Shown: one piece after another, positions 1-10,990 of the stretch
Layout: each line of letters begins with the position of its first letter
Position numbering within the stretch: position 1 is the first letter of the stretch
Source: Deltaproteobacteria bacterium
Lineage (GTDB): Bacteria; Desulfobacterota; Desulfobaccia; Desulfobaccales; 0-14-0-80-60-11
NCBI GenBank assembly: GCA_023381945.1
Contig: JAMCQY010000016.1
Coordinates: 1 to 10,990 of the forward strand
Length of the DNA: 10,990 nucleotides
Direction of reading: 5' to 3'
Notes under the pieces: generated by a model
Seen by the model: only the letters and a program-made list of their open reading frames with translations
Told to the model about the DNA's origin: nothing
Database searches by the model: none
Position numbers and translations under genes: made by a program

Positions 1-652
1 CGTTCAGATAAGTCAGGCCGGAGGGCACCCGGGGGTCGTCGGCAAAGTCAATATAGGCCTCATCCAGGACCACGGTGACTTCGGCCGGCAGGGCAGCCAA
101 AAACGCCTCCCATTCCTCCCGGTAAAACACGGTGCCAGTGGGGTTATTGGGATTGTTCAGGATAATCAGCCGGGTTTGGGAATTGACGGCCTGGGCCACG
201 GCTGCAAGGTTCACCCGTAAATTCTTCAGAGGCACCGGGCGGAAAATGCCGCCCACGGCCTTGGTGATCAGGCCGTACATCAAAAAGGTGTGGGTGGTGC
301 TGAGCACCTCGCCGCCGGCGGGCACCAGGGCCCGGACCAGCAGGTCCAGGATCTCGTCGGACCCGTTGCCCAAGATGAGTTGCTGCGGGGAGAGCTCCAA
401 TTGGGCGGCGAGGTCCCTTTTCAGGTAATAGGCGTGGCTGTCGGGGTAACGGTGCAGGCTGGAAAGACCCGCCTGTACGGCGGACAGGGCCTTGGGGGAC
501 GGCCCCAGGGGATTTTCGTTGGAGGCCAGCTTGATGGCGTCGGTGATGCCTAATTCACGTTCCAGTTCTTCCAACGGCTTGCCGGCCTGGTAGGGCGTCA
601 GTTGCGAAAGGTGCGGCAGAAGCTGACAGATGAGAGGTTTGCTGGCTGCCAT
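1..652 (-). CDS. hisC: Histidinol-phosphate aminotransferase, N-terminal part (runs off window start)
   Basis: PLP-dependent class I/II aminotransferase that converts imidazole-acetol phosphate and glutamate to histidinol phosphate in histidine biosynthesis (cytosolic). I translated 217 codons from the ATG at 652-650. Visible hallmarks are the N-terminal LASNENPLGPSP (about residues 42-53), HRYPD (67-71), GNGSDE (95-100), the NNPNNPTG cofactor/substrate loop (166-173) and LDEAYIDF (196-203) carrying the Asp and Tyr that contact PLP. The catalytic lysine normally follows about 25 residues later, so it lies outside the window. The frame stays open upstream of this ATG and no clear Shine-Dalgarno precedes it, but the N-terminus matches the usual HisC start. 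It is transcribed divergently from the gene at 1071. The assignment is by motif recall. Very close relatives such as other HisC-like aminotransferases cannot be excluded from a partial sequence. Confidence 0.93.
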   Translation of the reverse strand, partial: MAASKPLICQLLPHLSQLTPYQAGKPLEELERELGITDAIKLASNENPLGPSPKALSAVQAGLSSLHRYPDSHAYYLKRDLAAQLELSPQQLILGNGSDEILDLLVRALVPAGGEVLSTTHTFLMYGLITKAVGGIFRPVPLKNLRVNLAAVAQAVNSQTRLIILNNPNNPTGTVFYREEWEAFLAALPAEVTVVLDEAYIDFADDPRVPSGLTYLN

Positions 653-1070
653 AGGGTTAAGACCAAGGGCTTCCGGGGCCGGAAGGGCAGGGGCAAAAGG
701 AGATATGGGGTGAGCGGTTAGTTTTTGCGGTGAAAAAGACCGAAAAGTTGAGCCAAACCTGCATCCCCGCTATCCTGATTATGTCGTGCGGGGATTGCTC
801 CTTTACCCTGTTTTGCTAGTTAATTAAGCCGGTTATCCTTGGGAAGAACTCCTTTATTACCAGGGCGCGCCTGGCCTGCAAGTTAATTTAATGATTTTTA
901 CAGCAAAATGATAAAAAAAGCAAGCCTTCTCTTTAAGTTATAGGTCTGAGGTCAGGAAAAATCTAGCGGCAAGGTTAAGAATTGATTAATGGCAACCAAC
1001 TGCTGCCTGTTGTTGACCCGCAGCGCCGTTCCTGTTAGTCTGACGAGAGACTTCGCCATCGGGGGCTCCC
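653..1070. other. Divergent intergenic region between hisC and the CFeSP-like gene
   Basis: These 418 bases contain no convincing gene. They are more AT-rich than the flanking genes, mainly at 820-980, as expected of a divergent promoter region. There is an inverted repeat ATCCCCGC (763-770) / GCGGGGAT (788-795) with a 17-base loop, and a small palindrome CCAGG-GCGCG-CCTGG at 860-874. Neither has a proper terminator U-tract. Short reading frames across 952-1183 on both strands lack family resemblance and overlap the real gene start. Confidence 0.6.
1013..1041 (+). promoter_or_regulatory. Weak candidate promoter for the CFeSP-like gene
   Basis: TTGACC (1013-1018) is followed after 17 bases by TAGTCT (1036-1041), which ends 29 bases before the ATG at 1071. 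The -35 match is good but the -10 match is only 3 of 6, so this is a weak call made mostly from position. Confidence 0.25.
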
Positions 1071-1697
1071 ATGCTTTATGCCAATCTATATATCGACCGG
1101 ATCGAGCTCGCTCCGTACCTGAGCCCGGAGGACTGCCGGGGCGCCGGGATGGCGAATGCCGCCCAACTGGCGGCAAAGTTTAAGAAGGGCGCCCTCCGCC
1201 TGGATGGTTGCCCCGGCCTTTCGACTGCCAAGCGCGCCGCCCTGGACCTGGCCCTGCGAGCCGAAGAGGTCCTGCCCAAGGTGCAGTCCCTGGAGTTTCC
1301 CCGGCCGCTGAACCCCTCGCTTTTCGAACTTAACGATCCCGGCCCGGACGCCCCGCTGCTGGTCACCGGCAACAGCGAATTCACCCTGACGGTGCTCACC
1401 GGGTTGCTGTCCCTGACCGTCAGCCCCTTTTTCCTGCTGCAGGTGGATACCCGGGGGGACACCGCCGACATGTCCATGATTTACCGCAGCTTCACCCCCC
1501 AGCGCCTGGACCAGGCCCTGGAAACGCAGAAACTGGCCGAACGGCTCAGCCACCGGGAGCTGATAATCCCCGGGGTGCTGGCCCCGATGAAGGAAGAACT
1601 GGCCGGCTACTTAGCCTCCTGGACCATCCGGCCGGGTCCCATCTGCGCCGCGGAATTGCCCCTGTTCCTGGGGGATAAATGGCAGGCGCTGCCGTAG
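1071..1697 (+). CDS. CFeSP large-subunit-like protein (AcsC/CdhE-related) without the barrel domain
   Basis: 208-residue protein resembling the two ends of the corrinoid iron-sulfur protein large subunit of the acetyl-CoA (Wood-Ljungdahl) pathway. Residues 13-55 look like the N-terminal cluster domain, whose usual pattern is Cys-x2-Cys-x4-Cys followed by a distal Cys-Pro. Here C22 and C47-P48 are kept, but the two middle positions are A25 and A30. Residues 94-205 resemble the C-terminal corrinoid-facing domain: LLVTGNSEFTLTV (95-107), a D-T-x-x-x-x-x-M-S segment near 126-136, LSHRELIIPG (159-168) and a terminal GP...LPLFLG. The roughly 200-residue TIM barrel of the full subunit (about 440 residues) is missing. 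No signal peptide or membrane segment is seen, so it is probably cytosolic. It may bind or guard a corrinoid protein, but it may equally be a paralogue with a new role. Only a weak G-rich Shine-Dalgarno precedes the ATG. Hairpins at its stop codon suggest a single-gene transcript. Confidence 0.7.
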   Translation: MLYANLYIDRIELAPYLSPEDCRGAGMANAAQLAAKFKKGALRLDGCPGLSTAKRAALDLALRAEEVLPKVQSLEFPRPLNPSLFELNDPGPDAPLLVTGNSEFTLTVLTGLLSLTVSPFFLLQVDTRGDTADMSMIYRSFTPQRLDQALETQKLAERLSHRELIIPGVLAPMKEELAGYLASWTIRPGPICAAELPLFLGDKWQALP

Positions 1698-1768
1698 GGG
1701 GGGACCCATGTGTCCCCCCCTTTGAGGGCGCACACGCGGGTGCGCCCCTACGCTTGCTCACTTTTTTT
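1697..1768 (+). terminator. Two tandem GC hairpins followed by a T-tract
   Basis: The first hairpin pairs GGGGGGGAC (1697-1705, starting in the stop codon) with GTCCCCCCC (1712-1720) around a 6-base loop. The second pairs GGGCGCAC (1726-1733) with GTGCGCCC (1740-1747), also with a 6-base loop. Seven T residues lie at 1762-1768, 14 bases after the second stem. That spacing is longer than a textbook intrinsic terminator, so the pair may be a dispersed repeat of the TAGGGGCG...CGCCCCTA type that also serves as a transcript end. Confidence 0.6.
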
Positions 1769-1779
1769 ACATCTTGCGC

Positions 1780-1808
1780 TTGCCCCCGGCCCCTTTAGAG
1801 CCTATATA
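1780..1808 (+). promoter_or_regulatory. Candidate promoter for the receiver-glgC operon
   Basis: TTGCCC (1780-1785), a 17-base spacer and TATATA (1803-1808), each matching the sigma-70 consensus at 4 of 6 positions. It lies 43 bases before the receiver start and just after the preceding terminator region, which is the expected place for it. Confidence 0.4.
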
Positions 1809-1851
1809 TTAGAACGATCACTAATTCTGTAATATCCTGGAGCAGTTGCCG

Positions 1852-2205
1852 ATGAAAACTATTCTGGTGGTGGATGACGACGAGCCTATCCGCATACTGT
1901 TGCAGGAGGAGTTGCAAGACGCGGGGTATAATGTCCTTACGGCCACTAATGCCCGGGACGCCTTGAAAATGGTGCAGGAGGAGGTCCTGGATCTGGTCAT
2001 CCTCGATATCCGGATGCCCGGCATGGACGGCCTGGAGGCCCTGCCCCGAATTTTGGGCCTGAAAGAGGGCCTGCCGGTGATCCTCAATACCGCCTATACC
2101 CAATATCAGGAAAGCTTCATGAGTTGGGCGGCCGACGCCTATGTGGTGAAATCCTCGGATCTCACCGAACTCAAGGCCAAAGTCAAAGAATTGCTCAAGG
2201 AATAG
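1852..2205 (+). CDS. Stand-alone response-regulator receiver (CheY-like)
   Basis: 117-residue phosphoacceptor domain with no output domain. It has the acidic pair D8/D9 (VVDDDEP), the phosphorylation site D52 in VILDIRMPGMDG, the switch Thr at T80 (LNTAY) and the invariant Lys K100 (YVVKSSDL), so the active site is complete. The ATG at 1852 is preferred over an in-frame TTG at 1846 because GGAG at 1839-1842 sits 9 bases before the ATG but only 3 before the TTG. The stop TAG at 2203-2205 touches the ATG of glgC, so the two are almost certainly co-transcribed and probably translationally coupled. Single-domain receivers act by protein-protein contact or as phosphorelay intermediates. The sensor kinase and the target are not in this window. 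A link to glycogen metabolism is inferred from position only. Confidence 0.93.
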   Translation: MKTILVVDDDEPIRILLQEELQDAGYNVLTATNARDALKMVQEEVLDLVILDIRMPGMDGLEALPRILGLKEGLPVILNTAYTQYQESFMSWAADAYVVKSSDLTELKAKVKELLKE

Positions 2206-3417
2206 ATGGACGTCCTGAAGAAACTCACTACCATCATCATGGCGGGCGGCAAGGGCGAGCGCCTCTTTCCCCTGACCCGGGACAAGGCCAAGCCGGCCAT
2301 CACCTTCGGCGGCCTCTACAAAATCATCGATTTCACCCTGTCCAACTGTGTCAATTCCGGCATTCGCCGCGTCTATGTCCTCACCCAGTACGGCAGTTTT
2401 TCCCTGGACCAGCACCTCCGGGTCGCCTGGGACATCATGCATCTGGACCTGGGGGAGTTCATCTATTCTATGCCCCCCCAGCAGATTATGGTAAACCGCT
2501 GGTACCGGGGCACCGCGGATTCCATCTACCAAAACCTCACCTTGCTGGAGCAGGAGCGCCCCGAACAGGTCCTGATCCTTTCCGGCGACCATGTCTATAA
2601 AATGAACTACCGGCGGATGCTGGACTTTCACCTTTCCTGCAACGCCGACATGACCGTGGCCGCAGTGCCGGTGCCCAGGGGCGAGGCCAGTTCCTTCGGC
2701 ATCCTCAAGGTGGATGACAAGGGCGCGGTGGAAAATTTCCTGGAAAAACCGGCCAACCCCCCGGGCATGCCCGGCTCGCCGGATTATTCCCTGTCCTCCA
2801 TGGGGGTTTATATCTTCCGGGCCCGGACCCTGGTGGAGGAGGTCATCAAGGACGCCAAGAAGAAGACCAGCAAACACGACTTCGGCGCGGATATCATTCC
2901 GCAGGCAGTGGGACGCAAACGGGTTTTTGCCTATAATTTCGCCGACGCCCAGGGGACGCCGCTCTACTGGCGGGATATCGGCCTGCTGGACGCCTATTTC
3001 AAGGCCCACAGCGACCTGCTGGGGGCCAACCCCACCTTTGAACTTTTCGACCCTGATTGGCCCATGCGCTGCCGGCCGCAGCTCCTGCCCCCCAGCAAAT
3101 ACATTACCAATGGCAAATGCCTGGCCGTGGGCGATTCCCTCATCTCCTCGGGCTGCATCATCGAGGGCACCGTGGATCACGCCGTGATCTCCCCCCGCGT
3201 GAAGGTAGGCCGCGGCGCCGCCGTTGAAGCCGCCGTCCTTTGGGACGGGGTGGAGGTCGGCCCCGGCGCCACCGTCAAAAACGCCATCATCGAAGACGGC
3301 GTCAAAATCCCCGCAGGCTTCCACATCGGTCTCAACCTCAAGCAAGATGCCAAACGCTTCCACGTCACCGAAAACGGCATCGTGGTCGTCCCTAATAATG
3401 TTATCTTAGAAGAGTAG
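2206..3417 (+). CDS. glgC: Glucose-1-phosphate adenylyltransferase (ADP-glucose pyrophosphorylase)
   Basis: 403 residues, within the normal range for bacterial GlgC. It makes ADP-glucose from ATP and glucose-1-phosphate, the committed step of glycogen synthesis in the cytosol. The nucleotidyltransferase domain shows MAGGKGERLFPLTRDKAKPA (12-31) with the pyrophosphorylase signature, DFTLSNCVNSGIRRV (about 44-58), WYRGTADS, LSGDHVYKMNY (125-135, with the catalytic-metal Asp D128) and FLEKP (178-182). The C-terminal part (from about 290) has the hexapeptide-like repeats of a left-handed beta-helix, for example the segment with GCIIEGTVDHAVISP. The start at 2206 directly follows the receiver stop. 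AAGGA at 2197-2201 is only 4 bases away, consistent with coupled translation. Other glycogen genes are not seen. There is no strong terminator before the low-GC gene at 3450. Confidence 0.95.
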   Translation: MDVLKKLTTIIMAGGKGERLFPLTRDKAKPAITFGGLYKIIDFTLSNCVNSGIRRVYVLTQYGSFSLDQHLRVAWDIMHLDLGEFIYSMPPQQIMVNRWYRGTADSIYQNLTLLEQERPEQVLILSGDHVYKMNYRRMLDFHLSCNADMTVAAVPVPRGEASSFGILKVDDKGAVENFLEKPANPPGMPGSPDYSLSSMGVYIFRARTLVEEVIKDAKKKTSKHDFGADIIPQAVGRKRVFAYNFADAQGTPLYWRDIGLLDAYFKAHSDLLGANPTFELFDPDWPMRCRPQLLPPSKYITNGKCLAVGDSLISSGCIIEGTVDHAVISPRVKVGRGAAVEAAVLWDGVEVGPGATVKNAIIEDGVKIPAGFHIGLNLKQDAKRFHVTENGIVVVPNNVILEE

Positions 3418-3449
3418 AAAAATAGGGATTCCCCTTAATAGAAATCCGC

Positions 3450-4835
3450 ATGGCTATTTTTTCAAGAAGAATTATCCAACGTCTAATAAACAAAAACGCT
3501 GAGTTCCTCCTTAAATCGCAAATACAAGGTCATGTGAATCATCTAAATATCATGGCAAAAGAACTGACACTTGCTTATGAGTGGGAAGTTTTGTTGCTTT
3601 ATACTTTTAGTATAGTAGGTAAAGTTGTTCATGAGAAAGATTTTGGCGGCAGAAGAAAGGTCGACATTTACTTTGAAACCTATGAGGACCCAAAATACAA
3701 TTTTGTGGCAGAAATAACTACTATTTCTGATAAAGGACTAGATCAAAATAATCCAATCGAAGCTTTTTCGAATGAAGTATATAAAATTGTAGGCGAGTAT
3801 GGCCTGAGTGGGAATTCCTTTCATATTCAAGTTGGAGGTAGAAAAGGCCCTACCTGTAAGGGGGAGCACAAAGTAGAGCTTAAACTTCCAGGGCGTGCAA
3901 GATTCTCCCAAACTATTTTGAATAAAGGCTTTAGGGATTTTCTTAAAGAAGTTATAAACAGCCCTAATTCGCTTCATCATTATAATGTTAATTCACCCGA
4001 TGCTGCTGTAATGATAAAATACGATCCTAATCAAAGATTTGCTTCAGGAAACTATCCAAGTTATAAGGAAATGATTATATTAACTGAAAATCCTATATAT
4101 GATGCTCTGAATAGTAAAGTTTCCCAATTAATAGATTCCAACTTTAATGGCCATCTTGGAATTTTTCTCTGTGACGGTGGCAGTGAGTTATTTGCCAAAA
4201 AACCCGCTCCCTGGTTTTCATACTCAATTGGTGAGGTTATAAATCATTTTTTATCTAACAACGAAGCAGTAAAATTTGTAGTAACTTTTACAACAAAACC
4301 AAGACAACAATTGTCAACATTTTCCTCAAAACATGATTATGTGATGAATGTAATTCTTTATGAGGGATTGAAATTCGATGAAATAACGTTTGATATTCGT
4401 GAGATTTTGAAAAAAGTTATTAAGGCATTTCCAAAGCCTGAAACTTTTCCACTAGGGGCATTAAAGTTCCTTGAATGGAAAGGGAATTTAAATAAAGGAA
4501 GGTCACATTTTGGAGGCATGGAATTGGGCGCATCAAAAGAAAGAACAAGGGTTAAAGTTTCAGCCAGAGCATTGCTTGAGTTACTTGCAGGAGACGTTGA
4601 TCAGAAGAAATTTTTCCAGGAACATGGGTTTATTCCTTCGGAATTTGACCATAGTAGTCTCTTTAACCCCTTCAGCGCTGCCCTAAAAAGAGGGGAGCTA
4701 ATTAAGAATATTATATTAGAGGAGTCTGACTCACAAGATGATGACTGGATTACATTTGAATTGAAAGGTCCTGATCCAGCGATCTCACCTTATGTGGTTC
4801 CAACTACTAATAAAAAACTTATTAGGCGAAAGTAA
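3450..4835 (+). CDS. Unknown 461-residue protein, possible PD-(D/E)XK-type nuclease fold, in a low-GC island
   Basis: I do not recognise the family with certainty. The N-terminal half is suggestive of a divergent PD-(D/E)XK nuclease core: an acidic helix EWEVLLLY (44-51), a glycine-rich turn then RKVDIYFE (69-76, D72), and a second strand FVAEITT (85-91, E88) in which the usual Lys of ExK is Thr, as in some diverged members. A later segment HLGIFLCDGGSELF (235-248) followed by WFSYSIGEVINHFLSN (255-270) looks like a second folded unit. The C-terminal end is charged (EESDSQDDD, then KKLIRRK). There is no signal peptide or membrane helix. The gene is AT-rich (18 G/C of 60 at 4021-4080) next to a GC-rich glgC (41 of 60 at 2941-3000), which suggests horizontal acquisition. 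The Shine-Dalgarno before the ATG is poor, and a promoter is not evident in the 32 bases after glgC. A defence or restriction-like role is speculation. Confidence 0.72.
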   Translation: MAIFSRRIIQRLINKNAEFLLKSQIQGHVNHLNIMAKELTLAYEWEVLLLYTFSIVGKVVHEKDFGGRRKVDIYFETYEDPKYNFVAEITTISDKGLDQNNPIEAFSNEVYKIVGEYGLSGNSFHIQVGGRKGPTCKGEHKVELKLPGRARFSQTILNKGFRDFLKEVINSPNSLHHYNVNSPDAAVMIKYDPNQRFASGNYPSYKEMIILTENPIYDALNSKVSQLIDSNFNGHLGIFLCDGGSELFAKKPAPWFSYSIGEVINHFLSNNEAVKFVVTFTTKPRQQLSTFSSKHDYVMNVILYEGLKFDEITFDIREILKKVIKAFPKPETFPLGALKFLEWKGNLNKGRSHFGGMELGASKERTRVKVSARALLELLAGDVDQKKFFQEHGFIPSEFDHSSLFNPFSAALKRGELIKNIILEESDSQDDDWITFELKGPDPAISPYVVPTTNKKLIRRK

Positions 4836-4888
4836 AGCCCGTAGCCCGTAGCCCGTAGGGCGGGAAAGCGCAGCGCATCCCGCCTTTT
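4836..4888 (+). repeat. Triple 7-base repeat followed by a terminator-like hairpin
   Basis: Immediately after the TAA of the preceding gene, AGCCCGT occurs three times in tandem (4836-4842, 4843-4849, 4850-4856). It is followed by GGCGGGA (4859-4865) pairing with TCCCGCC (4878-4884) around a 12-base loop, then TTTT (4885-4888). The GC-rich element contrasts with the AT-rich gene before it. It looks like a dispersed repeat that may also end the transcript. Confidence 0.7.
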
Positions 4889-5153
4889 GCATATTCCGTC
4901 TTCAGTTTTTGAACTTGTTTCAACTGCTCCCCATCAATCTTTTCTTTTTCAGACGGCCCTTGAAAAATTCTTTTGCCTTACCAGGCTCTAGCTTGGTAAC
5001 GTATTTCCTCCCTTAAGCTTCGTTTGTGGATTCTTTAGGATGATGGCCAACTTGCAATTGCAAGGATTTAACAAAGCTGGAGCTTTGCGGTAAAAAATCT
5101 TGCATGAACAAAAATTCACAAAGGGCGGGAATGCTTTTTTTCCCAGGTTAAAC
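4889..5153. other. Non-coding low-GC stretch with short palindromes
   Basis: No gene is supported here. A 64-codon minus-strand frame (5182-4988) crosses the palindromes and has no Shine-Dalgarno or recognisable family. Three palindromes lie in this stretch: TTACCAGGCT (4978-4987) with AGCTTGGTAA (4990-4999), 10 pairs including one G-T, loop CT; the perfect palindrome CTTGCAATTGCAAG (5051-5064); and CAAAGCT/AGCTTTG (5072-5078 / 5081-5087). They share the core of a GTTCCCAAGCT..AGCTTGGGAAC-like dispersed element and may be decayed copies of it. Confidence 0.55.
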
Positions 5154-5183
5154 TTGACAATCATTTTCGTTCCCAAGTACAAT
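5154..5183 (+). promoter_or_regulatory. Distal sigma-70-like promoter of the 71-residue ORF
   Basis: A perfect TTGACA (5154-5159), an 18-base spacer and TACAAT (5178-5183), the latter matching the -10 consensus at 5 of 6 positions. It is the best promoter match in the window by eye. Confidence 0.6.
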
Positions 5184-5211
5184 TCGTAAGTGATTTTAAA
5201 AGGAACTGAGT

Positions 5212-5241
5212 TTGTCAGTCATTTTCGTTCCCCAGTACAAC
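5212..5241 (+). promoter_or_regulatory. Proximal duplicated promoter of the 71-residue ORF
   Basis: TTGTCA (5212-5217), an 18-base spacer and TACAAC (5236-5241). It occupies the same place in the second repeat unit as the distal promoter does in the first, with slightly poorer boxes. The -10 lies 34 bases before the ATG at 5276. Confidence 0.5.
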
Positions 5242-5275
5242 TCAGGGACGAGTTGAAAAAGGAGACCAATGTTTT

Positions 5276-5491
5276 ATGTCAACTAAAAAAGAATTACATT
5301 TGGAAGAGTATATTAAGAAGCTGCAAGAAGCGGCATGGAAAATAGTGGACGAGCGGAATGTGATAAACAATAAAGTAATTTATCTTTCAGCGGATAATGC
5401 CGCCTTTACCGGCGAAGGCGAGCAATTAGGCATATTCAAAGAAGCACTTTCGAGAGTAAATGAAGAATATGAGCTGAAAGCTGAAGCTTAA
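5276..5491 (+). CDS. Small unknown protein, 71 residues
   Basis: I do not recognise this protein. It is hydrophilic and acidic overall, with a charged helical start (KKELHLEEYIKKLQEAAWKI, about residues 4-23), a central stretch NNKVIYLSADNAAFTGEGEQ (31-50) and a helical end rich in Glu. It has no Cys, signal peptide or membrane segment. The reasons for believing it is coding are a GGAG at 5261-5264 upstream of the ATG (11-base spacing), the duplicated promoter in front, and a stop that overlaps the next start (TAATG). An earlier ATG at 5269 gives only MFYVN before a stop. The DNA is low in GC (20 of 60 at 5281-5340), unlike the next gene, so the gene belongs to the same compositional island as 3450-4835. 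Its role is unknown. Confidence 0.65.
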   Translation: MSTKKELHLEEYIKKLQEAAWKIVDERNVINNKVIYLSADNAAFTGEGEQLGIFKEALSRVNEEYELKAEA

Positions 5492-6138
5492 TGCGTTTCC
5501 AGGCCCAACGCGCCAAAGGCTTGCTCACTGCCACCCGGCTCTACCTGGTGCGCCATGGCCGGGTGGCCGACGGCCACACCGACCGCTACCATGGCCACAA
5601 CGATATCGGCCTTTCGCCCCAGGGTATTCAGCAGTTTGAAGACCTGGCGGTCCAGCTCGCCGCCGCGCCCCTGGCGGGAGTCTATTCCTCGGACCTCACC
5701 CGTACCATTGCCGGCGCCGAAATCATCAGCCGGGGCCGGGACCTCACCCCCCTGGCCATTCCGGAATTCCGCGAAGTCAACTTCGGCTCCTGGGAGGGGC
5801 TCACTTTCGCCGAAATCATGGCGCAGTACCCCGCCGAACTGGAGGAGCGCTTTAGGGACCTGGCTAACTTCCGCATCCCCGGCGGCGAAAGCTTAAAAGA
5901 CGTCAAGGCCCGGGCCCTGCCCAAACTCCGGGAATTACTCGGCCGCCATGCCAATGAATCCTTCCTGCTGGTGGCTCACGCCGGCATTAACCGGGTCATC
6001 CTGAGCGAGGCCATGGGCCTGCCCCTGGACCGCCTCTTCCGCCTGGACCAAAATTACGGCTGTCTCAACGTTATCGACTATTTCCCGGACCTGGCGGTGG
6101 TACGCCTGCTGAACGGCGGGGTGAACGGCGCGACCTGA
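5491..6138 (+). CDS. Histidine phosphatase superfamily protein (CobC/GpmB-like)
   Basis: 215-residue member of the phosphoglycerate-mutase-like phosphatases, likely cytosolic. It shows the catalytic LVRHG (19-23, phosphohistidine H22), the second phosphate-binding Arg in SSDLTRT (R71), the acid donor region REVNFGSWEG (94-103, E95) and the second catalytic His in VAHAGINR (161-168, H163). The pattern and length fit alpha-ribazole phosphatase (CobC), which acts late in cobalamin synthesis. Broad-specificity phosphatases of the GpmB type look the same at this level, so no symbol is given. The ATG overlaps the stop of the preceding 71-residue ORF by one base. The 15 or so residues before the RHG strand are a little long for the family, so a later start is possible. 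The gene is GC-rich (43 of 60 at 5521-5580), so the compositional boundary falls exactly at its start. A hairpin at 6216-6234 follows it. Confidence 0.9.
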   Translation: MRFQAQRAKGLLTATRLYLVRHGRVADGHTDRYHGHNDIGLSPQGIQQFEDLAVQLAAAPLAGVYSSDLTRTIAGAEIISRGRDLTPLAIPEFREVNFGSWEGLTFAEIMAQYPAELEERFRDLANFRIPGGESLKDVKARALPKLRELLGRHANESFLLVAHAGINRVILSEAMGLPLDRLFRLDQNYGCLNVIDYFPDLAVVRLLNGGVNGAT

Positions 6139-6158
6139 CAAGTGAAAGATAGAGGCTG

Positions 6159-6202
6159 AACCACAAAGAACACCAAGAGCACCAAGAAAAGATTCACCAA
6201 GG
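6159..6202. repeat. CACCAAG-type repeat, left inverted copy
   Basis: This stretch consists of AACCACAAAGAACACCAAGA, then GCACCAAGAAAAGATTCACC and AAGG: CACCAAG or a close variant four times at about 10-13 base spacing. AGAAAAGATT (6185-6194) occurs in reverse orientation at 6855-6864. I associate such ACCAAGRCACCAAG strings with dispersed repeats of Desulfobacterota-like genomes, from memory. Confidence 0.65.
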
Positions 6203-6215
6203 AAAAAATGATATA

Positions 6216-6234
6216 GGCTGCGCCTAGCGCAGCC
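6216..6234 (-). terminator. Strong hairpin, terminator for the minus-strand block
   Basis: GGCTGCGC (6216-6223) pairs perfectly with GCGCAGCC (6227-6234) around a 3-base loop. Read on the minus strand the stem is followed by TATATCATTTTTT, an adequate U-tract, so it should terminate the minus-strand genes that end at 6259. On the plus strand no T-run follows, although the hairpin may still protect the 3' end of the phosphatase mRNA. Confidence 0.75.
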
Positions 6235-6258
6235 CAGCTTCCCTTAGTGACTCTCAGT

Positions 6259-6805
6259 TCAACTGTTTGCGGCTTTCCTTTTCTTGGCCTTGAGTAACCG
6301 GAAGTAAAGAAATGCCATTGAACCACAGTAGATGATTATGAAAACCGCGCCAAATAAAAGCGTGGGATTCAGCTTTTTGAAGGCAATTGCACAAATTCCA
6401 AATACAACCATGCCAATACAATAAATTACTCTTAACCGTAACTCGAGTAAGCTATTTTTGTGAACAAGTTCAGCGAATTTTTCGTTATTTTCAAGTCGCT
6501 CTTCGGCTCTCTCCAGATGGCGGCATTGACCATAAGTCCATAGCGCAAAAGGAACTATTCCCAGGAACATAAAAATGGGATGAACAAACCAGCCAATAAT
6601 TCCAAGCCACGCAAGGACGTATATAATCGCGGATACATAAGCAATCTTTAGCTTTTTCGATAATTCCTGGTACATCCTCGGAAGGGATGATATAACCGCG
6701 ACCAAAATGCACCCAGGGATAAAAGACCTTGCGGCCATCTTTAGCCTTGCCAAAAAAGCCATCCTCCAAAGCCTCCCAAAAACCCTTCTGCCCACTTTTT
6801 TCCAT
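6259..6805 (-). pseudogene. Four-helix membrane protein of unknown function, split by a frameshift
   Basis: Two overlapping minus-strand frames make one sensible protein of about 181 residues. The first (ATG at 6805-6803, G-rich Shine-Dalgarno just upstream) encodes a soluble head with KDGRKVFYPW (22-31) and GRGYIIPSE (35-43), a motif I associate with uncharacterised small membrane proteins. After the GAG codon at 6679-6677 the frame must move by one base (at about 6676) to continue as MYQELSKKLKIAY and then predicted membrane helices at about 54-74, 76-91, 125-142 and 147-170, ending in a basic tail (KAKKRK). Between helices 2 and 3 is a charged segment with ERAEERLENN. The longer frame starting near 6822 without the shift has an implausible basic N-terminus. 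The break may be a true mutation, an assembly error or, less likely, programmed frameshifting. The gene sits between inverted CACCAAG repeats. Confidence 0.75.
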
Positions 6806-6833
6806 ATAGACCCCCCGGACAATTAATCTAAAT

Positions 6834-6864
6834 GGTCTTGGTGCCTTGGTGGTTAATCTTTTCT
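6834..6864. repeat. CACCAAG-type repeat, right inverted copy
   Basis: On the minus strand this reads AGAAAAGATTAACCACCAAG, then GCACCAAGACC. It is an inverted, shorter counterpart of the copy at 6159-6202, sharing the exact AGAAAAGATT (6864-6855) and the CACCAAGG that follows. It includes the stop codon of the CoA-transferase gene (6855-6853). Confidence 0.65.
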
Positions 6865-7662
6865 CTGAAACACATTCTTTTGCAGATACTCCTCCCAGGC
6901 TGCCGGGTCTTTGGCGCTTTTCAGGTATAGTCCAATCTGCTCTTCGTCTTGGTCGTAGTAACCGGGATAGCCGGTGGGCGCCGCACCATTGGGGCAAGCC
7001 ACCAGGGCGTTGAGGTGAATGGCCGGGACCAGGCGCCAGTCCGCCTCTTCCTTTAAGGGTCCCGCCACCCTCTCCTCCACCGTGGCAATGACGGTCTGCG
7101 ATGCCCTGATAGCCAGGGGCCAATCCGCCAACCGGGGAATGAGGATATTGCCCGACTCGTCTCCTTTACTGCCGTGCACCAAGGTGACGTCCGGCTTCAG
7201 GGCCTTGACCACCACCATCTCTTCGCCGCTGAACGGGTCCGGAATGATCTGGAAATCAGCGTTGACTTCCGGGTAAATCGACCCCAAAATCCCCCGCACC
7301 GGCAGAAACGGTGCGCCCATGCCCCCCGCCTGGAGGGCCCGCAGCAAAGCACCTCAGGGATACTCCCGGCAGGACAATCTCCCCTGTTCCACCGCCCGGC
7401 GGAAGTGGGGCGCCATGCCGTATTCATCCAGGACTACCTGGGCGAAATGAATCCGGTCGGCAAGACCCCCGCCCACGGCCAGGTCGACGTTGAGGCCGCC
7501 GGTGGGCGCCGTCACCAATCCCAGGTACTGCCGCCCTTGCCGGATAAGTTCCCGGATCAGGGCCATGGGCGCGGCCTTGGTGTGGCCCGACAGGGCCACC
7601 AGGTCGCCGTCTTTTACCAGGGCCGCAGCCGCGGCCAACTCAGTCCAGACAGGTGGCATCAT
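6853..7662 (-). pseudogene. Class I CoA-transferase alpha subunit, interrupted by an in-frame TGA
   Basis: Codons 1-102 (start 7662 or the adjacent ATG at 7659, the latter 6 bases after GGGAG) and the frame from 7353 to 6853 are the same reading frame separated by one TGA at 7356-7354. Together they give about 269 residues, a normal length for a glutaconate/3-oxoacid CoA-transferase alpha-type subunit. Recognisable parts are VKDGDLVALSGHTKAAP (16-32), TAPTGGLNVDLAVGGGLADR (51-70), LDEYGMAPHFRRAVEQGRL (78-96), then after the TGA the segment GMGAPFLPVRGILGS, the DPFSGEE motif, and LVHGSKGDESGN. This subunit binds CoA while the catalytic Glu resides on the beta subunit, which would normally follow immediately. 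Here the gene ends in a repeat and the next gene is unrelated. Its start overlaps the end of the Nudix gene by 23 bases, so they share a transcript. Most likely a decaying gene. Readthrough or assembly error are alternatives. Confidence 0.85.
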
Positions 7663-8248
7663 GGTCTCCCGGTATGGGGTGCTGGCCCAGGAAGGCCAGG
7701 AGGTGCAAAAGAATGCGGGCGGTGGCGCCCCAGATCACTTCGTGATTAAAGCGCCAATAGCAAACCCGGGTGATCTGCCCCTGGTAGCGGTAATTGCCGC
7801 TGCTCCAGCGCGAAGCCTCGTAAAAGCCCTCCAGGGGCAGAAGCAGCAGCTTTTTAACCTCCCGGGGATTGGGGTGAAAATCGTAGGGGTGGGGGATCAG
7901 GCCCACAAACGGGGTAATGCGGTAACCGGTGATGGTAGCCACTATCGGGAGGGCGCCAAGCACCTCCACTGCCTCTGGTTCCAGGCCGATCTCTTCCCGG
8001 GTCTCCCTGAGGGCCGTGGCCAGCAAATCAGGGTCTTCGGCATCCTTCACCCCCCCGGGAAAGGAGATCTGCCCCCGATGGTCCCTTACCGTAAAGGTGC
8101 GCTGGGTAAAGAGCAGTTGAGCCTTCCCCTCTTTAAAGAACAGCGGCGCCAGGACCCCGGCAGGCACCAGGCCGGACCCGGCCGGCTGGGCCGGGTTCGA
8201 AATCAGGTGGGCTTTGAGCAGGGAGACCAAGGGTTGGCTCATGACCAT
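7640..8248 (-). CDS. Nudix hydrolase, CoA pyrophosphatase-like (NudL family)
   Basis: 202 residues from the ATG at 8248 (an upstream in-frame TTG at 8287 and an ATG at 8242 are alternatives; none has a clear Shine-Dalgarno). The NudL-type signature is plain: LLFTQRTFTVRDHRGQISFP (45-64) leading into the Nudix box GGVKDAEDPDLLATALRETR (65-84) and EEIGL (85-89), with the metal-binding R81-E82-x2-E85-E86 intact. Downstream, ITPFVGLIPHPYDF (111-124) and the EVKKLLLLPL segment match the family's fold. Characterised relatives cleave CoA or acyl-CoA to a phosphopantetheine part and 3',5'-ADP. That substrate is inferred from the subfamily. The gene overlaps the following CoA-transferase gene by 23 bases, making a CoA-themed operon whose second gene is broken. 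It is divergent from the rubrerythrin-like gene. Confidence 0.9.
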   Translation of the reverse strand: MVMSQPLVSLLKAHLISNPAQPAGSGLVPAGVLAPLFFKEGKAQLLFTQRTFTVRDHRGQISFPGGVKDAEDPDLLATALRETREEIGLEPEAVEVLGALPIVATITGYRITPFVGLIPHPYDFHPNPREVKKLLLLPLEGFYEASRWSSGNYRYQGQITRVCYWRFNHEVIWGATARILLHLLAFLGQHPIPGDHDATCLD

Positions 8249-8367
8249 TTTTACCACGGATGTCCTACTCAGACAAGCAAAGGGCAAGACTTTTCAGCTT
8301 TATCCTTGGGGGCGTCTCGCCTGTCAACCAGCACCGTGGAGACGCCTGCGCTGAACAGCCAGGCTGA

Positions 8368-8396
8368 TTGACAAGGGGGGCGGTGAAACTTATGTT
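8368..8396 (+). promoter_or_regulatory. Sigma-70-type promoter of the rubrerythrin-like gene
   Basis: A perfect TTGACA (8368-8373), a 17-base spacer and TATGTT (8391-8396). Transcription would begin near 8403, leaving a leader of about 65 bases that contains a small hairpin (GCCGG 8405-8409 / CCGGC 8417-8421) and the GGGAG Shine-Dalgarno (8456-8460). Confidence 0.65.
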
Positions 8397-8470
8397 GAGG
8401 TAGTGCCGGGAAAAATCCGGCCTGAGGCACGCGGTTCCGTCTTTAACATTGATAAGGGAGAACACCTGTC

Positions 8471-8995
8471 ATGAAAGTCCACGAATACATGCTCCAGGCC
8501 CTGAAGGACGCGGTACAGATGGAATTGGAGGGGCGGCAATTTTATCTCCAGGCCGCCAAGAAAGTGCAAAATGCCGGAGTGCGCCAGATCTTTGAATACC
8601 TGGCGGAATCGGAAAAATACCATATCGAAAAGTTCAATGAAATCTACCGCGACTTGGAGAAAGATCCGACCTGGACCGCGCCCATGGCCACCTTCAGTCC
8701 TCCGAAGCATGAGCCTTACGTCTGTGTCATGGCCATGACCCAGGCGGACCAGGGCGCCGGCGGCAAGGATGATCTCCAAGCCCTGCGCACCGGACTCAAG
8801 ATGGAGGATTGCTCGATCGACTACTACACCAAGTTGGCCCGGGAGACCAAGAATCCCTTGGCCCGGCGCTTCTTTATGAGCGTGGCCCACGAAGAGCGGT
8901 CGCATTACCTCACGCTGCTGGATATGCACAACTATCTGACCCTGCCGGAGGACTGGTTCTACGTCAAGCAGATGAGCAATGTAGACGGAGCATAA
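8471..8995 (+). CDS. Rubrerythrin-like diiron protein (ferritin-like domain, no rubredoxin domain)
   Basis: 174-residue four-helix-bundle protein of the rubrerythrin/ferritin-like group, cytosolic. Likely diiron ligands are all present: E20 (MELEGRQFY), E48 and H51 (ESEKYHIEKF), E112 (KMEDCSIDYY), and E142 and H145 (HEERSHY). Rubrerythrins in anaerobes usually reduce hydrogen peroxide. This protein lacks the C-terminal Cys-rich rubredoxin domain, so it would need an external electron donor, or it may have another role such as iron handling. GGGAG lies 10 bases before the ATG. Upstream is a good promoter (8368-8396), and the next gene in the same direction starts 61 bases after the stop with no terminator visible, so the two may be co-transcribed. 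The linker (about 64-104, with several Pro and Gly) is longer than in minimal rubrerythrin domains. Confidence 0.9.
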   Translation: MKVHEYMLQALKDAVQMELEGRQFYLQAAKKVQNAGVRQIFEYLAESEKYHIEKFNEIYRDLEKDPTWTAPMATFSPPKHEPYVCVMAMTQADQGAGGKDDLQALRTGLKMEDCSIDYYTKLARETKNPLARRFFMSVAHEERSHYLTLLDMHNYLTLPEDWFYVKQMSNVDGA

Positions 8996-9056
8996 AAGAA
9001 GGGCGAAGGGCTAAAGGCGAAAAGATCACGACTCTCTTCTGCGCGGGAAATATTCA

Positions 9057-9812
9057 ATGGAATTGATTGTGGTAGGTTCAGGAACCGGCGTCCCTTCTTT
9101 AAACCGGGGCTCCCCCTGTCTGGCGGTCAAGGCCGCCGGCCGGTTGATTGTGCTGGATCTGGGGGCCGGCAGCCTGCGAGCCATGCTGCAGTGGGGCCTT
9201 AACTTTAACCAGATCGACATCCTGGGCTTGAGCCACCGCCATCCCGACCACGTGGGAGACCTGGTCCCCTTCTTATTCGCCACGCGTTATGCGCTGGGCT
9301 ACACCCGGCAGGAGCCTTTCTGGCTGCTGGCGGCGCAAGGCTTTGCCGGATTTTTGGGCCATCTTCAGGAAGCCTTTGGACGATGGGTCGAGCCCCCTGA
9401 GGGCCTGATGCAACTCCGGGAACTTGCTCCCGGGGATACTGATACAGTGGAGTGGCAGGGTTTAACCATAAAAAGCGCGCCCACCGCTCATACCGAGGGC
9501 AGCCTGGCCTTCCGGATCGAGGCTGGTTCACAGTCCCTGGTCTACTCCGGAGATACGGACGTCAGCGACTCCCTGGCGGCCTTGGCCCAAGGGGCCGACT
9601 TGCTGGTGCTGGAGTCAGCCAACCCGTTTAAGGCGCCGGGACATTTGACCCCCGGCGAGGCCGGCAAACTCGCGGCCCGCGCCGGGGCGCGGCGGCTGCT
9701 CCTGACCCACTTCTATCCGCCGTGCGATGAAGTGGACGTGGCGGCCCTGGCGAAACAGGAATTTAGCGGCGAGATCATCAAGGCCAAGGATGGCTTGCAA
9801 TATAGTTTTTAG
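9057..9812 (+). CDS. MBL-fold metallohydrolase, RNase Z-like group
   Basis: 251 residues with a complete two-metal site of the metallo-beta-lactamase fold: HRHPDH (60-65, giving H60, H62, D64 and H65), H145 (APTAHTEGS), D166 (YSGDTD) and H218 (LLTHFYPP). The start GSGTGVPSLNRGSPCLAV (7-24) and the LDLGAGSLRAML segment match the RNase Z/arylsulfatase-like branch. However, it is shorter than tRNase Z (about 300 residues) and shows no obvious flexible arm, so it is more likely a general phosphodiesterase-like or other hydrolase of unknown substrate. No signal peptide, so cytosolic. The Shine-Dalgarno is weak (GCGGGAAA, about 7 bases from the ATG). It follows the rubrerythrin-like gene on the same strand. 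An 18-base tandem repeat spans its stop. Confidence 0.9.
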   Translation: MELIVVGSGTGVPSLNRGSPCLAVKAAGRLIVLDLGAGSLRAMLQWGLNFNQIDILGLSHRHPDHVGDLVPFLFATRYALGYTRQEPFWLLAAQGFAGFLGHLQEAFGRWVEPPEGLMQLRELAPGDTDTVEWQGLTIKSAPTAHTEGSLAFRIEAGSQSLVYSGDTDVSDSLAALAQGADLLVLESANPFKAPGHLTPGEAGKLAARAGARRLLLTHFYPPCDEVDVAALAKQEFSGEIIKAKDGLQYSF

Positions 9813-9830
9813 TTGCAATATTGATTTTCA
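9795..9830 (+). repeat. 18-base tandem duplication across the stop codon
   Basis: Two units beginning TTGCAATAT (9795-9812 and 9813-9830) match at about 14 of 18 positions. The first encodes LQYSF and the stop, and the second repeats LQY and another stop in the same frame. It probably arose by slippage and may have no function. Confidence 0.5.
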
Positions 9831-9875
9831 GATAAGCCCCATAAAGGCCATCGACGTGAAAGTGAGGATGAGATC

Positions 9876-10256
9876 ATGAAGCCGCGGACTGGTGAAAAAA
9901 TTGCTATTTTTCTGGCGCTATCTCTGACCGCCATGCTGGTGCTGGGGGGGTGCGCCACCACTACCGGCACTAAGCCCGAGCCGGTATCGGTGACGCAAAT
10001 AGTCGAAATGTCTAAATCTAAGGTGCCGCCTCAGGATATCATCAATCAGATCAAAACTTCGGGGACGGTTTACCGGCTCGACGCCAGCCAATTGGCGGAC
10101 CTGCGGCAGGCCGGGGTTTCTGACCAAGTGATTAATTATATGCAGCAGACGTACCTGGAGGCGGTGCGCCGGAACCAGGAGAGGCTTGATTGGTACTACT
10201 GGAGCCCCGGTGTCGGCGGCTACTGGTACGGCGGCGTCCCGTATGGGTGGCGGTGA
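9876..10256 (+). CDS. Small lipoprotein of unknown function
   Basis: 126 residues. The N-terminus is a lipoprotein signal: basic MKPRTGEK, hydrophobic 9-23 and the lipobox LGGC with the lipidated C26. A Thr-rich linker follows. The body (40-100) has the pattern ITQIVEMSKSKVPPQDIINQ and then TVYRLDASQLADLRQAGV with NYMQQTYLEAVR, which I have seen in uncharacterised lipoproteins of Gram-negative anaerobes and which predicts a compact helical domain. The tail is unusually rich in Tyr, Trp and Gly (DWYYWSPGVGGYWYGGVPYG, 105-124), a low-complexity surface-type tail. GAGG (9864-9867) is 8 bases before the ATG. The next lipoprotein gene begins 3 bases after its stop, so the two form an operon. Placement in the outer-membrane inner leaflet is plausible because Ala rather than Asp follows the Cys. 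Confidence 0.88.
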   Translation: MKPRTGEKIAIFLALSLTAMLVLGGCATTTGTKPEPVSVTQIVEMSKSKVPPQDIINQIKTSGTVYRLDASQLADLRQAGVSDQVINYMQQTYLEAVRRNQERLDWYYWSPGVGGYWYGGVPYGWR

Positions 10257-10259
10257 TCT

Positions 10260-10571
10260 ATGAGACCCTGTTTAAAGCTTGTTGAATTGCGATTAGTGTG
10301 CCTGGTGCTGGTGGCGGTCCTTTTGGGCGCGGGCTTAACCGGTTGCACCCGTTCCAAGGTCAACAAGGACAATTTCGATAAGATTAAATTGAGCATGACT
10401 CAGGAAGAAGTGCAGAAAATCCTGGGGCCGCCCACTGAAGCCAGCGGTCTCGAGATTCCGGTGTTTTCGGGGACTACCGCCAAGTGGATCCAGGGGGACA
10501 CTATCATCACCGTTCAGTTTATCAACGGCAAGGTGGTGGCCAAGGAATTCTCCAAGCAACCCAAGCAATAA
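10260..10571 (+). CDS. Small lipoprotein, BamE/SmpA- or DUF3862-like
   Basis: 103 residues. The lipoprotein signal has an uncharged hydrophobic core at 12-26 and the lipobox LTGC, with C29 lipidated and Thr next. The mature part begins with NKDNFDKIKLSMTQEEVQKI (35-54) and LGPPTEAS, then KWIQGD and the strand pair ITVQFINGKVVAKEF. This is the two-helix, three-strand pattern of BamE/SmpA-like domains and the related DUF3862 lipoproteins. BamE proper assists outer-membrane protein assembly, but this family is wide and the copy here cannot be assigned that job. The start lies 3 bases after the preceding lipoprotein's stop, with GGTGG just upstream serving as a modest Shine-Dalgarno. Either an ancillary envelope protein or a structural partner of its neighbour. 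Confidence 0.85.
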   Translation: MRPCLKLVELRLVCLVLVAVLLGAGLTGCTRSKVNKDNFDKIKLSMTQEEVQKILGPPTEASGLEIPVFSGTTAKWIQGDTIITVQFINGKVVAKEFSKQPKQ

Positions 10572-10594
10572 ACCGGTATCCGGGAACTGGCGAA

Positions 10595-10634
10595 GTGCAT
10601 CAAAAAGAATTACATTCATAAAAATGCAATGCAC
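10595..10634. repeat. Inverted repeat GTGCAT / ATGCAC
   Basis: GTGCAT (10595-10600) and ATGCAC (10629-10634) flank 28 AT-rich bases between the lipoprotein pair and the kinase-like gene. Six pairs over this distance can occur by chance. It could be an operator or part of a transcript end, but there is no supporting U-tract. Confidence 0.25.
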
Positions 10635-10677
10635 ATCCTGATTAAATATCGCTAAGGCACGCGGAGGAGAAAGCCAC

Positions 10678-10990
10678 ATGTCGATCATCACCATTTCCCG
10701 GGGATCGTATAGTCGCGGCAAGGAGGTGGCGGAAAAACTGGCCCAGTCCCTGGGTTATGAATGTCTGTCCCGAGACATCCTGCTGGAGGCCTCGGAGCGC
10801 TACAATATCCCGGAAATCAAGCTGATCCGGGCCATTCATGACGCCCCTTCCATCCTCGAACGCTTCACCTACAACAAGGAGCAGTACGTCGCCTATATCC
10901 GGGCGGCGTTGCTGAGGCATGTCCAGAAGGACAATGTGGTCTACCATGGTTTGGCAGGGCATTTCATGCTGCAAGGCATCCCCCATGCCC
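10678..10990 (+). CDS. Cytidylate kinase-like protein (PF13189 type), N-terminal part (runs off window end)
   Basis: 104 residues visible. The start SIITISRGSYSRGKEVAEKL (2-21) is a P-loop of the cytidylate kinase-like family: G9-x4-G14-K15, with Glu instead of the usual Ser/Thr after the Lys. It is followed by LGYECLSRDILLEASERYNI and RAIHDAPSILERFTY, and then NVVYHGLAGHFMLQ (90-103), which in this family carries the region after the nucleotide-binding fold. The family binds ATP and is presumed to phosphorylate a small molecule. Many members are uncharacterised and some are fused to regulatory domains, so CMP as substrate is not assured. The ATG at 10678 has a strong Shine-Dalgarno, GGAGGA (10663-10668), 9 bases upstream. 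An antisense frame across the gene is a shadow. The C-terminal part lies beyond the window. Confidence 0.88.
   Translation, partial: MSIITISRGSYSRGKEVAEKLAQSLGYECLSRDILLEASERYNIPEIKLIRAIHDAPSILERFTYNKEQYVAYIRAALLRHVQKDNVVYHGLAGHFMLQGIPHA

Follow-up and report, generated by a model that had tools for sequence, protein, structure and literature searches.

A stretch of low G+C content between the glgC gene and a histidine phosphatase gene of a deltaproteobacterium is, close to certainly, acquired DNA at a gene-turnover hotspot. It comprises positions 3418-5490 of contig JAMCQY010000016.1 (assembly GCA_023381945.1), of which positions 1-10,990 were analyzed and are called the window here. The interval contains the genes of a 461-residue protein, p461 (3450-4835), and of a 71-residue protein, p71 (5276-5491); these and all further features are on the forward strand unless stated otherwise. 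The overall reading that we favor, with moderate confidence, is that the junction between the two flanking genes would serve as a cargo slot, that its content would be swapped by recombination, and that p461 may act as a stand-alone anti-phage nuclease.

The original prediction of a low-GC island had been made from the sequence alone, and two of the checks that it proposed, sliding-window G+C and codon usage, both set the interval apart. The G+C content of the interval was 37.4%, compared to 52-65% in eleven other genes of the window, and windows of 300 bases yielded 32-44% within the interval and about 54-66% alongside. The G+C fraction at third codon positions (GC3) was 0.28 for the p461 gene and 0.36 for the p71 gene, compared to 0.68-0.83 for the same eleven genes, and the mean log-odds per codon were -0.53 and -0.25, respectively, versus +0.06 to +0.38. 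Both open reading frames (ORFs) have relatives: p461 has 158 related proteins, and the family of p71 comprises seven proteins including itself.

The edges were determined by comparison with L001, the nearest locus reached via the phosphatase, which belongs to a deltaproteobacterial metagenome-assembled genome and encodes a phosphatase with 90% and a GlgC with 85% identity. On the left, the identity was 82% in the final 300 nt of glgC (2206-3417, glucose-1-phosphate adenylyltransferase; NTP_transferase, E 6.5e-59) and 27% in the 60 nt past its stop codon. On the right, it was 32% in the 60 nt upstream of the ATG of the phosphatase gene (5491-6138; His_Phos_1, E 7e-53) and 85% in the 300 nt downstream. 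The foreign stretch thus spans exactly the region from the glgC stop codon to the phosphatase start codon, the two boundaries that had been predicted. Also in line with the prediction, ARAGORN detected no tRNA gene in the window, and neither an integrase nor a transposase was seen among its ORFs, of which eight proteins were scanned against Pfam. With regard to an integrative element, no integrase was seen among the interval ORFs, and none of the listed repeat families was common to both edges.

Next, the glgC-phosphatase junction was compared in 29 genomes from the order to which the L001 genome belongs; the phosphatase was detected in 25 and GlgC in 27 of them. The two genes abut in 16 genomes, the junction is occupied in 10, and it was unreadable in three (G009, G010, and G023). 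In 13 of the 16 tight genomes the glgC stop codon overlaps the phosphatase ATG (11 by a computed count of -1, and two read off the sequence with a computed value of -7), and the spacing in the other three is 2, 5, and 76 nt. An uninterrupted junction in relatives had been named as proof of an insertion, and these 16 genomes, together with the host-unlike composition, identify the interval as acquired DNA. Relatives carrying the same genes at this site, which would have spoken against acquisition, were not found: the p461 family was present in none of the 29 genomes and in two of 395 genomes of a phylum sample, and p71 relatives were found in 0 of 29 and 0 of 395, in searches run without a positive control.

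In five of the occupied genomes (G001-G005), glgC and the phosphatase gene are on one contig and are separated by 0.9-2.4 kb. In the other five (G016-G020), 373-2494 bases without a phosphatase follow glgC up to the end of the contig, and the junction is presumably occupied. A midpoint-rooted tree of GlgC plus phosphatase with 28 taxa places the window and all ten occupied genomes in one clade, which is split from the remaining tight genomes with an ultrafast bootstrap of 100 and which also contains two tight genomes (G006 and G021) and the unread G009. Under the midpoint root, the simplest history is that the junction opened once, that its content then turned over, and that it closed again twice; separate openings are possible. 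Because the site was already mostly occupied in the clade of the window, it is more likely that the p461 gene replaced earlier cargo than that it entered an empty junction. Neighboring gene pairs of 17 loci were used as controls. Gaps of more than 400 nt were found in 5 of 11 cases between glgC and the phosphatase gene, compared to 0 of 11 between the response regulator gene and glgC and 1 of 10 for the preceding pair. The phosphatase-CoA transferase pair had such gaps in 4 of 8 cases, and the three pairs after it in 1 of 8, 1 of 8, and 1 of 6; therefore, the other side of the phosphatase gene is variable, too.

The content of the site differed across the ten occupied relatives, and the ORFs named here for all of them but G003 point in the direction of glgC. 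G001 contains a SieB-like ORF and a 150-amino acid ORF, G002 contains a 182-amino acid ORF and a 195-amino acid ORF with a weak HEPN match, and G003 contains only an 84-amino acid lipoprotein-like ORF. The cargo of G004 is a 269-amino acid ORF that matches the phage DNA-binding family phrog_1305 (5.7e-07) and, weakly, PD-T7-4, and that of G005 is a PIN-like ORF under the Pfam cut-off. The ORF of G016 is interrupted by the contig end, the 222-amino acid ORF of G017 has sub-threshold matches only, and the ORF of G018 has about 320 amino acids and an uncertain start. G019 has an ORF that is cut by the contig end and probably encodes a membrane protein, with an AbiEii-like gene on the contig of the phosphatase side, and G020 has a DUF3800 gene that also matches the PADLOC model PDC-M04A at 1.7e-06. 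A BLAST comparison among 18 interval proteins revealed just two recurring families, an alpha/beta-hydrolase and the small lipoprotein-like ORF. The G+C content of the cargo immediately following glgC was 0.33-0.53; it was 0.62 for the AbiEii-like gene and 0.61 for the recurring hydrolase genes.

p461 is a candidate PD-(D/E)XK-like nuclease. It matched the family phrog_33687 of PHROGs v4 (E 8.3e-49) with residues 45-450 over profile positions 2-398 of 401, and no function is recorded there for this family. No family of Pfam, NCBIfam, or PADLOC was matched, and with regard to a catalogued defense system neither p461 nor p71 matched PADLOC-DB 2.0.0 at E <= 10. The full-length predicted model reached a predicted local distance difference test (pLDDT) value of 92. 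Residues 1-331 (3450-4442), which the predicted model and VIA matches suggest to be a nuclease-like core bearing an insertion, reached a pLDDT of 93 and a predicted template modeling (pTM) score of 0.87. The model resembles PD-(D/E)XK nucleases, though not cleanly, and, compared with the CdiA-CT nuclease domain, BsmI, EndoMS/NucS, and BsoBI, it has a large insertion and a C-terminal part with a DDDW motif.

Conservation was quantified in 77 family members. The putative active-site codons are those of E46 (3585-3587), D72 (3663-3665), and E88 (3711-3713). E46, which is located in a helix, and D72 are invariant (77/77 each), and residue 88 is always acidic (D in 69, E in 8), such that the acidic core-strand residues expected of the PD-(D/E)XK superfamily are present. 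In addition, K223 is conserved in 76 members, and the DDDW motif (residues 430-433, 4737-4748) is nearly constant, with D430 in 77, D431 in 76, D432 in 72, and W433 in 64 members. An HMA_2 domain was rejected, as the match was below the cut-off (E 0.083) and occurred in one of the 77 members only. The C-terminal part was likewise rejected as a module of other proteins: all 30 matches, 26 of them in the first listing, have 316-462 residues, in a search that took only proteins of 0.55-1.75 times the query length and that would have missed fusions outside this range. Three queries against phage records yielded no match, and the family profile had a single match to sequences of the PDB (E 0.26). 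Five weak matches to Bradyrhizobium plasmids were also observed.

Nine genomic contexts of p461 relatives were examined. On the viral contig L109, P2-type genes for replication and for the portal protein flank the relative, a DUF2254-like gene adjoins it, and genes for terminase, scaffold, and major capsid proteins lie further out. On a second viral contig, L110, which also carries an endolysin gene, the relative adjoins a gene for a NACHT-like ATPase (E 0.0012, below the cut-off). In G088 (L111, 4952-6280), a relative with one in-frame TAG adjoins Bro-N and SNF2 helicase genes, and in L112 the relative lies within a stretch of 35-40% G+C alongside KAP NTPase and Fic genes. Relatives on two rhizobial plasmids are near SIR2 and DUF262 genes, and that on a Sphingobium plasmid adjoins PIN-domain and IS256 genes. 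The last two contexts, on near-identical Sinorhizobium plasmids, contain recombinase, MobC, DUF4238, and phage-like genes. By our judgement, and counted without a control family, seven of the nine contexts lean towards defense. Based on the predicted fold, the conserved acidic residues, and these neighbors, p461 is on balance probably an anti-phage nuclease. The fold, the conserved residues, and the neighbors of the phrog_33687 family are additions of the present analysis.

The following course of events is proposed. The comparison shows that the glgC and histidine phosphatase genes abut in most relatives, in the majority of cases such that the stop codon of one overlaps the start codon of the other, and that in one clade the junction is open and filled by mostly AT-rich genes that vary by genome and are oriented as glgC. 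As no integrase, tRNA, or transposase was seen in the interval, we infer that cargo would be exchanged by homologous recombination at conserved flanking genes carried on the incoming DNA, which is likely and agrees with published hotspots without mobile elements. Once an infection is sensed, the PD-(D/E)XK-like core of p461 would cut nucleic acid, and the insertion and the C-terminal part would serve in sensing or assembly.

Several observations weigh against this proposal. At residue 90, where PD-(D/E)XK nucleases carry a lysine two residues past the second acidic residue, the family members mostly have threonine (49/77) or alanine (19/77). Furthermore, relatives of p461 are found on five plasmid records, four of them typed as conjugative, and on two viral contigs, and the Sinorhizobium contexts are without a clear defense gene. 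These locations would fit a different role for p461 within a real slot, namely that of a mobile-element nuclease or DNA-processing protein that serves plasmid or phage maintenance or counter-defense and was left behind by a degraded element. We consider this rather unlikely, as the other cargo of the slot includes SieB-, DUF3800-, and AbiEii-like genes, and several relatives are near SIR2, DUF262, KAP, or Fic genes or within the P2 gpA-gpQ interval.

The codon-exact edges are also a point in favor of a site-specific or transposon-like element whose recombinase would act from elsewhere. In L001 (9124-9180) and L005 (9629-9703), the cargo is followed by a truncated copy of the 5' part of the phosphatase gene, which could be a trace of an attachment site. 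The two copies are identical to one another at 50 of 57 positions and to the phosphatase genes of their own hosts at 49 of 61 and 51 of 61 positions, and each is joined to a GC-rich repeat that the two loci share (91% over 100 nt). However, none of the other four intervals compared, including that of the window, contains such a copy, and no recombinase was seen in the listed intervals, such that this explanation appears improbable. It is still far less probable that the AT-rich interval is ancient, was passed on vertically, drifted in composition, and disappeared from many relatives. The recurrence of the alpha/beta-hydrolase and the lipoprotein-like ORF in part of the clade would be expected in that case, but the hydrolase genes have a flank-like G+C content, unlike most of the variable cargo, the distribution of p461 in the order and the phylum sample is very sparse, and the outer genomes of the tree have a tight junction.

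The favored reading, a cargo slot with recombinational exchange, has parallels in published systems. In gene-transfer hotspots without recognizable mobile elements (Oliveira et al. 2017, PMC5635113), genes turn over between two conserved genes, as they do here; in contrast to those hotspots, the slot is a tightly abutting gene pair that is open in a single clade, whose bacteria are mostly uncultured, and the read-through intervals have only 0.9-2.4 kb. The core defense hotspots cDHS1 and cDHS2 of Pseudomonas aeruginosa (PMC10250203) share with the slot the constant core flanks and varying cargo, much of it without assigned function. However, the slot is far smaller, was compared between species and not between strains, and has cargo with an only putative role in defense. 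The gpA-gpQ interval of P2-like phages is a hotspot of anti-phage systems (PMC9122126), and genes of the gpA and gpQ kinds also flank the p461 relative in L109, whereas p461 itself is in a separate, chromosomal slot. A description of the glgC-phosphatase slot or of the phrog_33687 family was not found in searches of the open-licence PubMed Central literature. The slot is a sharply bounded, short address in mostly uncultured bacteria, most occupied genomes hold a different gene there, and several of the cargo genes are defense-like while several have no family name. The unnamed family phrog_33687 becomes a testable candidate for an anti-phage nuclease.

The region following glgC was also compared. 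In nine of the ten occupied genomes, the approximately 60 nt past the glgC stop codon were more alike than in any of 200 shuffles; G005 did not show this likeness, nor did the window, where 3418-3449 is the left junction from the glgC stop to the p461 start. Hexamers like TTGATT and TTTAAT or TTGAAT occur there in several genomes and suggest a promoter; shared ancestry alone could account for part of the likeness. A more specific proposal would be that the junction of this clade is dedicated to expression, with a conserved promoter-like leader behind glgC driving the plugged-in gene, and that p461 belongs to a new family of stand-alone anti-phage nucleases whose catalytic motif is altered and whose members travel between chromosomes, plasmids, and P2-like phages. 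We regard this as tentative and rather doubtful, because the window itself lacks the leader and ancestry may explain part of its conservation.

The remaining features of the interval were less informative. p71, whose stop codon overlaps the phosphatase start codon, was rejected as a known small protein, since no family of Pfam, NCBIfam, PADLOC, or PHROGs matched. The duplicated promoter of the original prediction (5154-5243) could not be upheld. Its two copies exist (5154-5185 and 5212-5243, 88% alike), but they resemble a repeat whose core GTTCCCAAGTACAACTTG is present in 21 of the 29 related genomes with up to 21 exact copies per genome, while a reversed-pattern control was absent from all 29. 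Eight promoter-like sites were found versus 5.8 (standard deviation 2.4) in shuffles, although for the site at 5154 11 of the 12 bases agree. The duplication is most plausibly a repeat dispersed through the genome, and a role as a dedicated regulator was rejected because of this resemblance. The folding of the palindromic repeats that had been reported barely exceeds that of shuffles (z -1.26 and -1.24). Rfam had no match in the interval and, up to E 1, a sole match elsewhere at chance level, and a structured RNA was therefore rejected. A GC-rich hairpin (4859-4884) is located just 3' of the p461 gene beside GCCCGTA repeats, and its folding was not significant compared to shuffles.

Two observations concern gaps outside of the interval. 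The twelfth of the other genes of the window, an AT-rich ORF of 187 amino acids on the reverse strand (6259-6822, G+C 0.43), is also a compositional outlier (GC3 0.46, log-odds -0.36 per codon). It lies between the phosphatase gene and the CoA-transferase-like gene, in a gap that has 182 nt in L001 and that may be a second variable slot. In L001, the gap between the nudix and rubrerythrin genes has 1830 nt compared to 113-252 nt in seven other loci, and is perhaps a further insertion.
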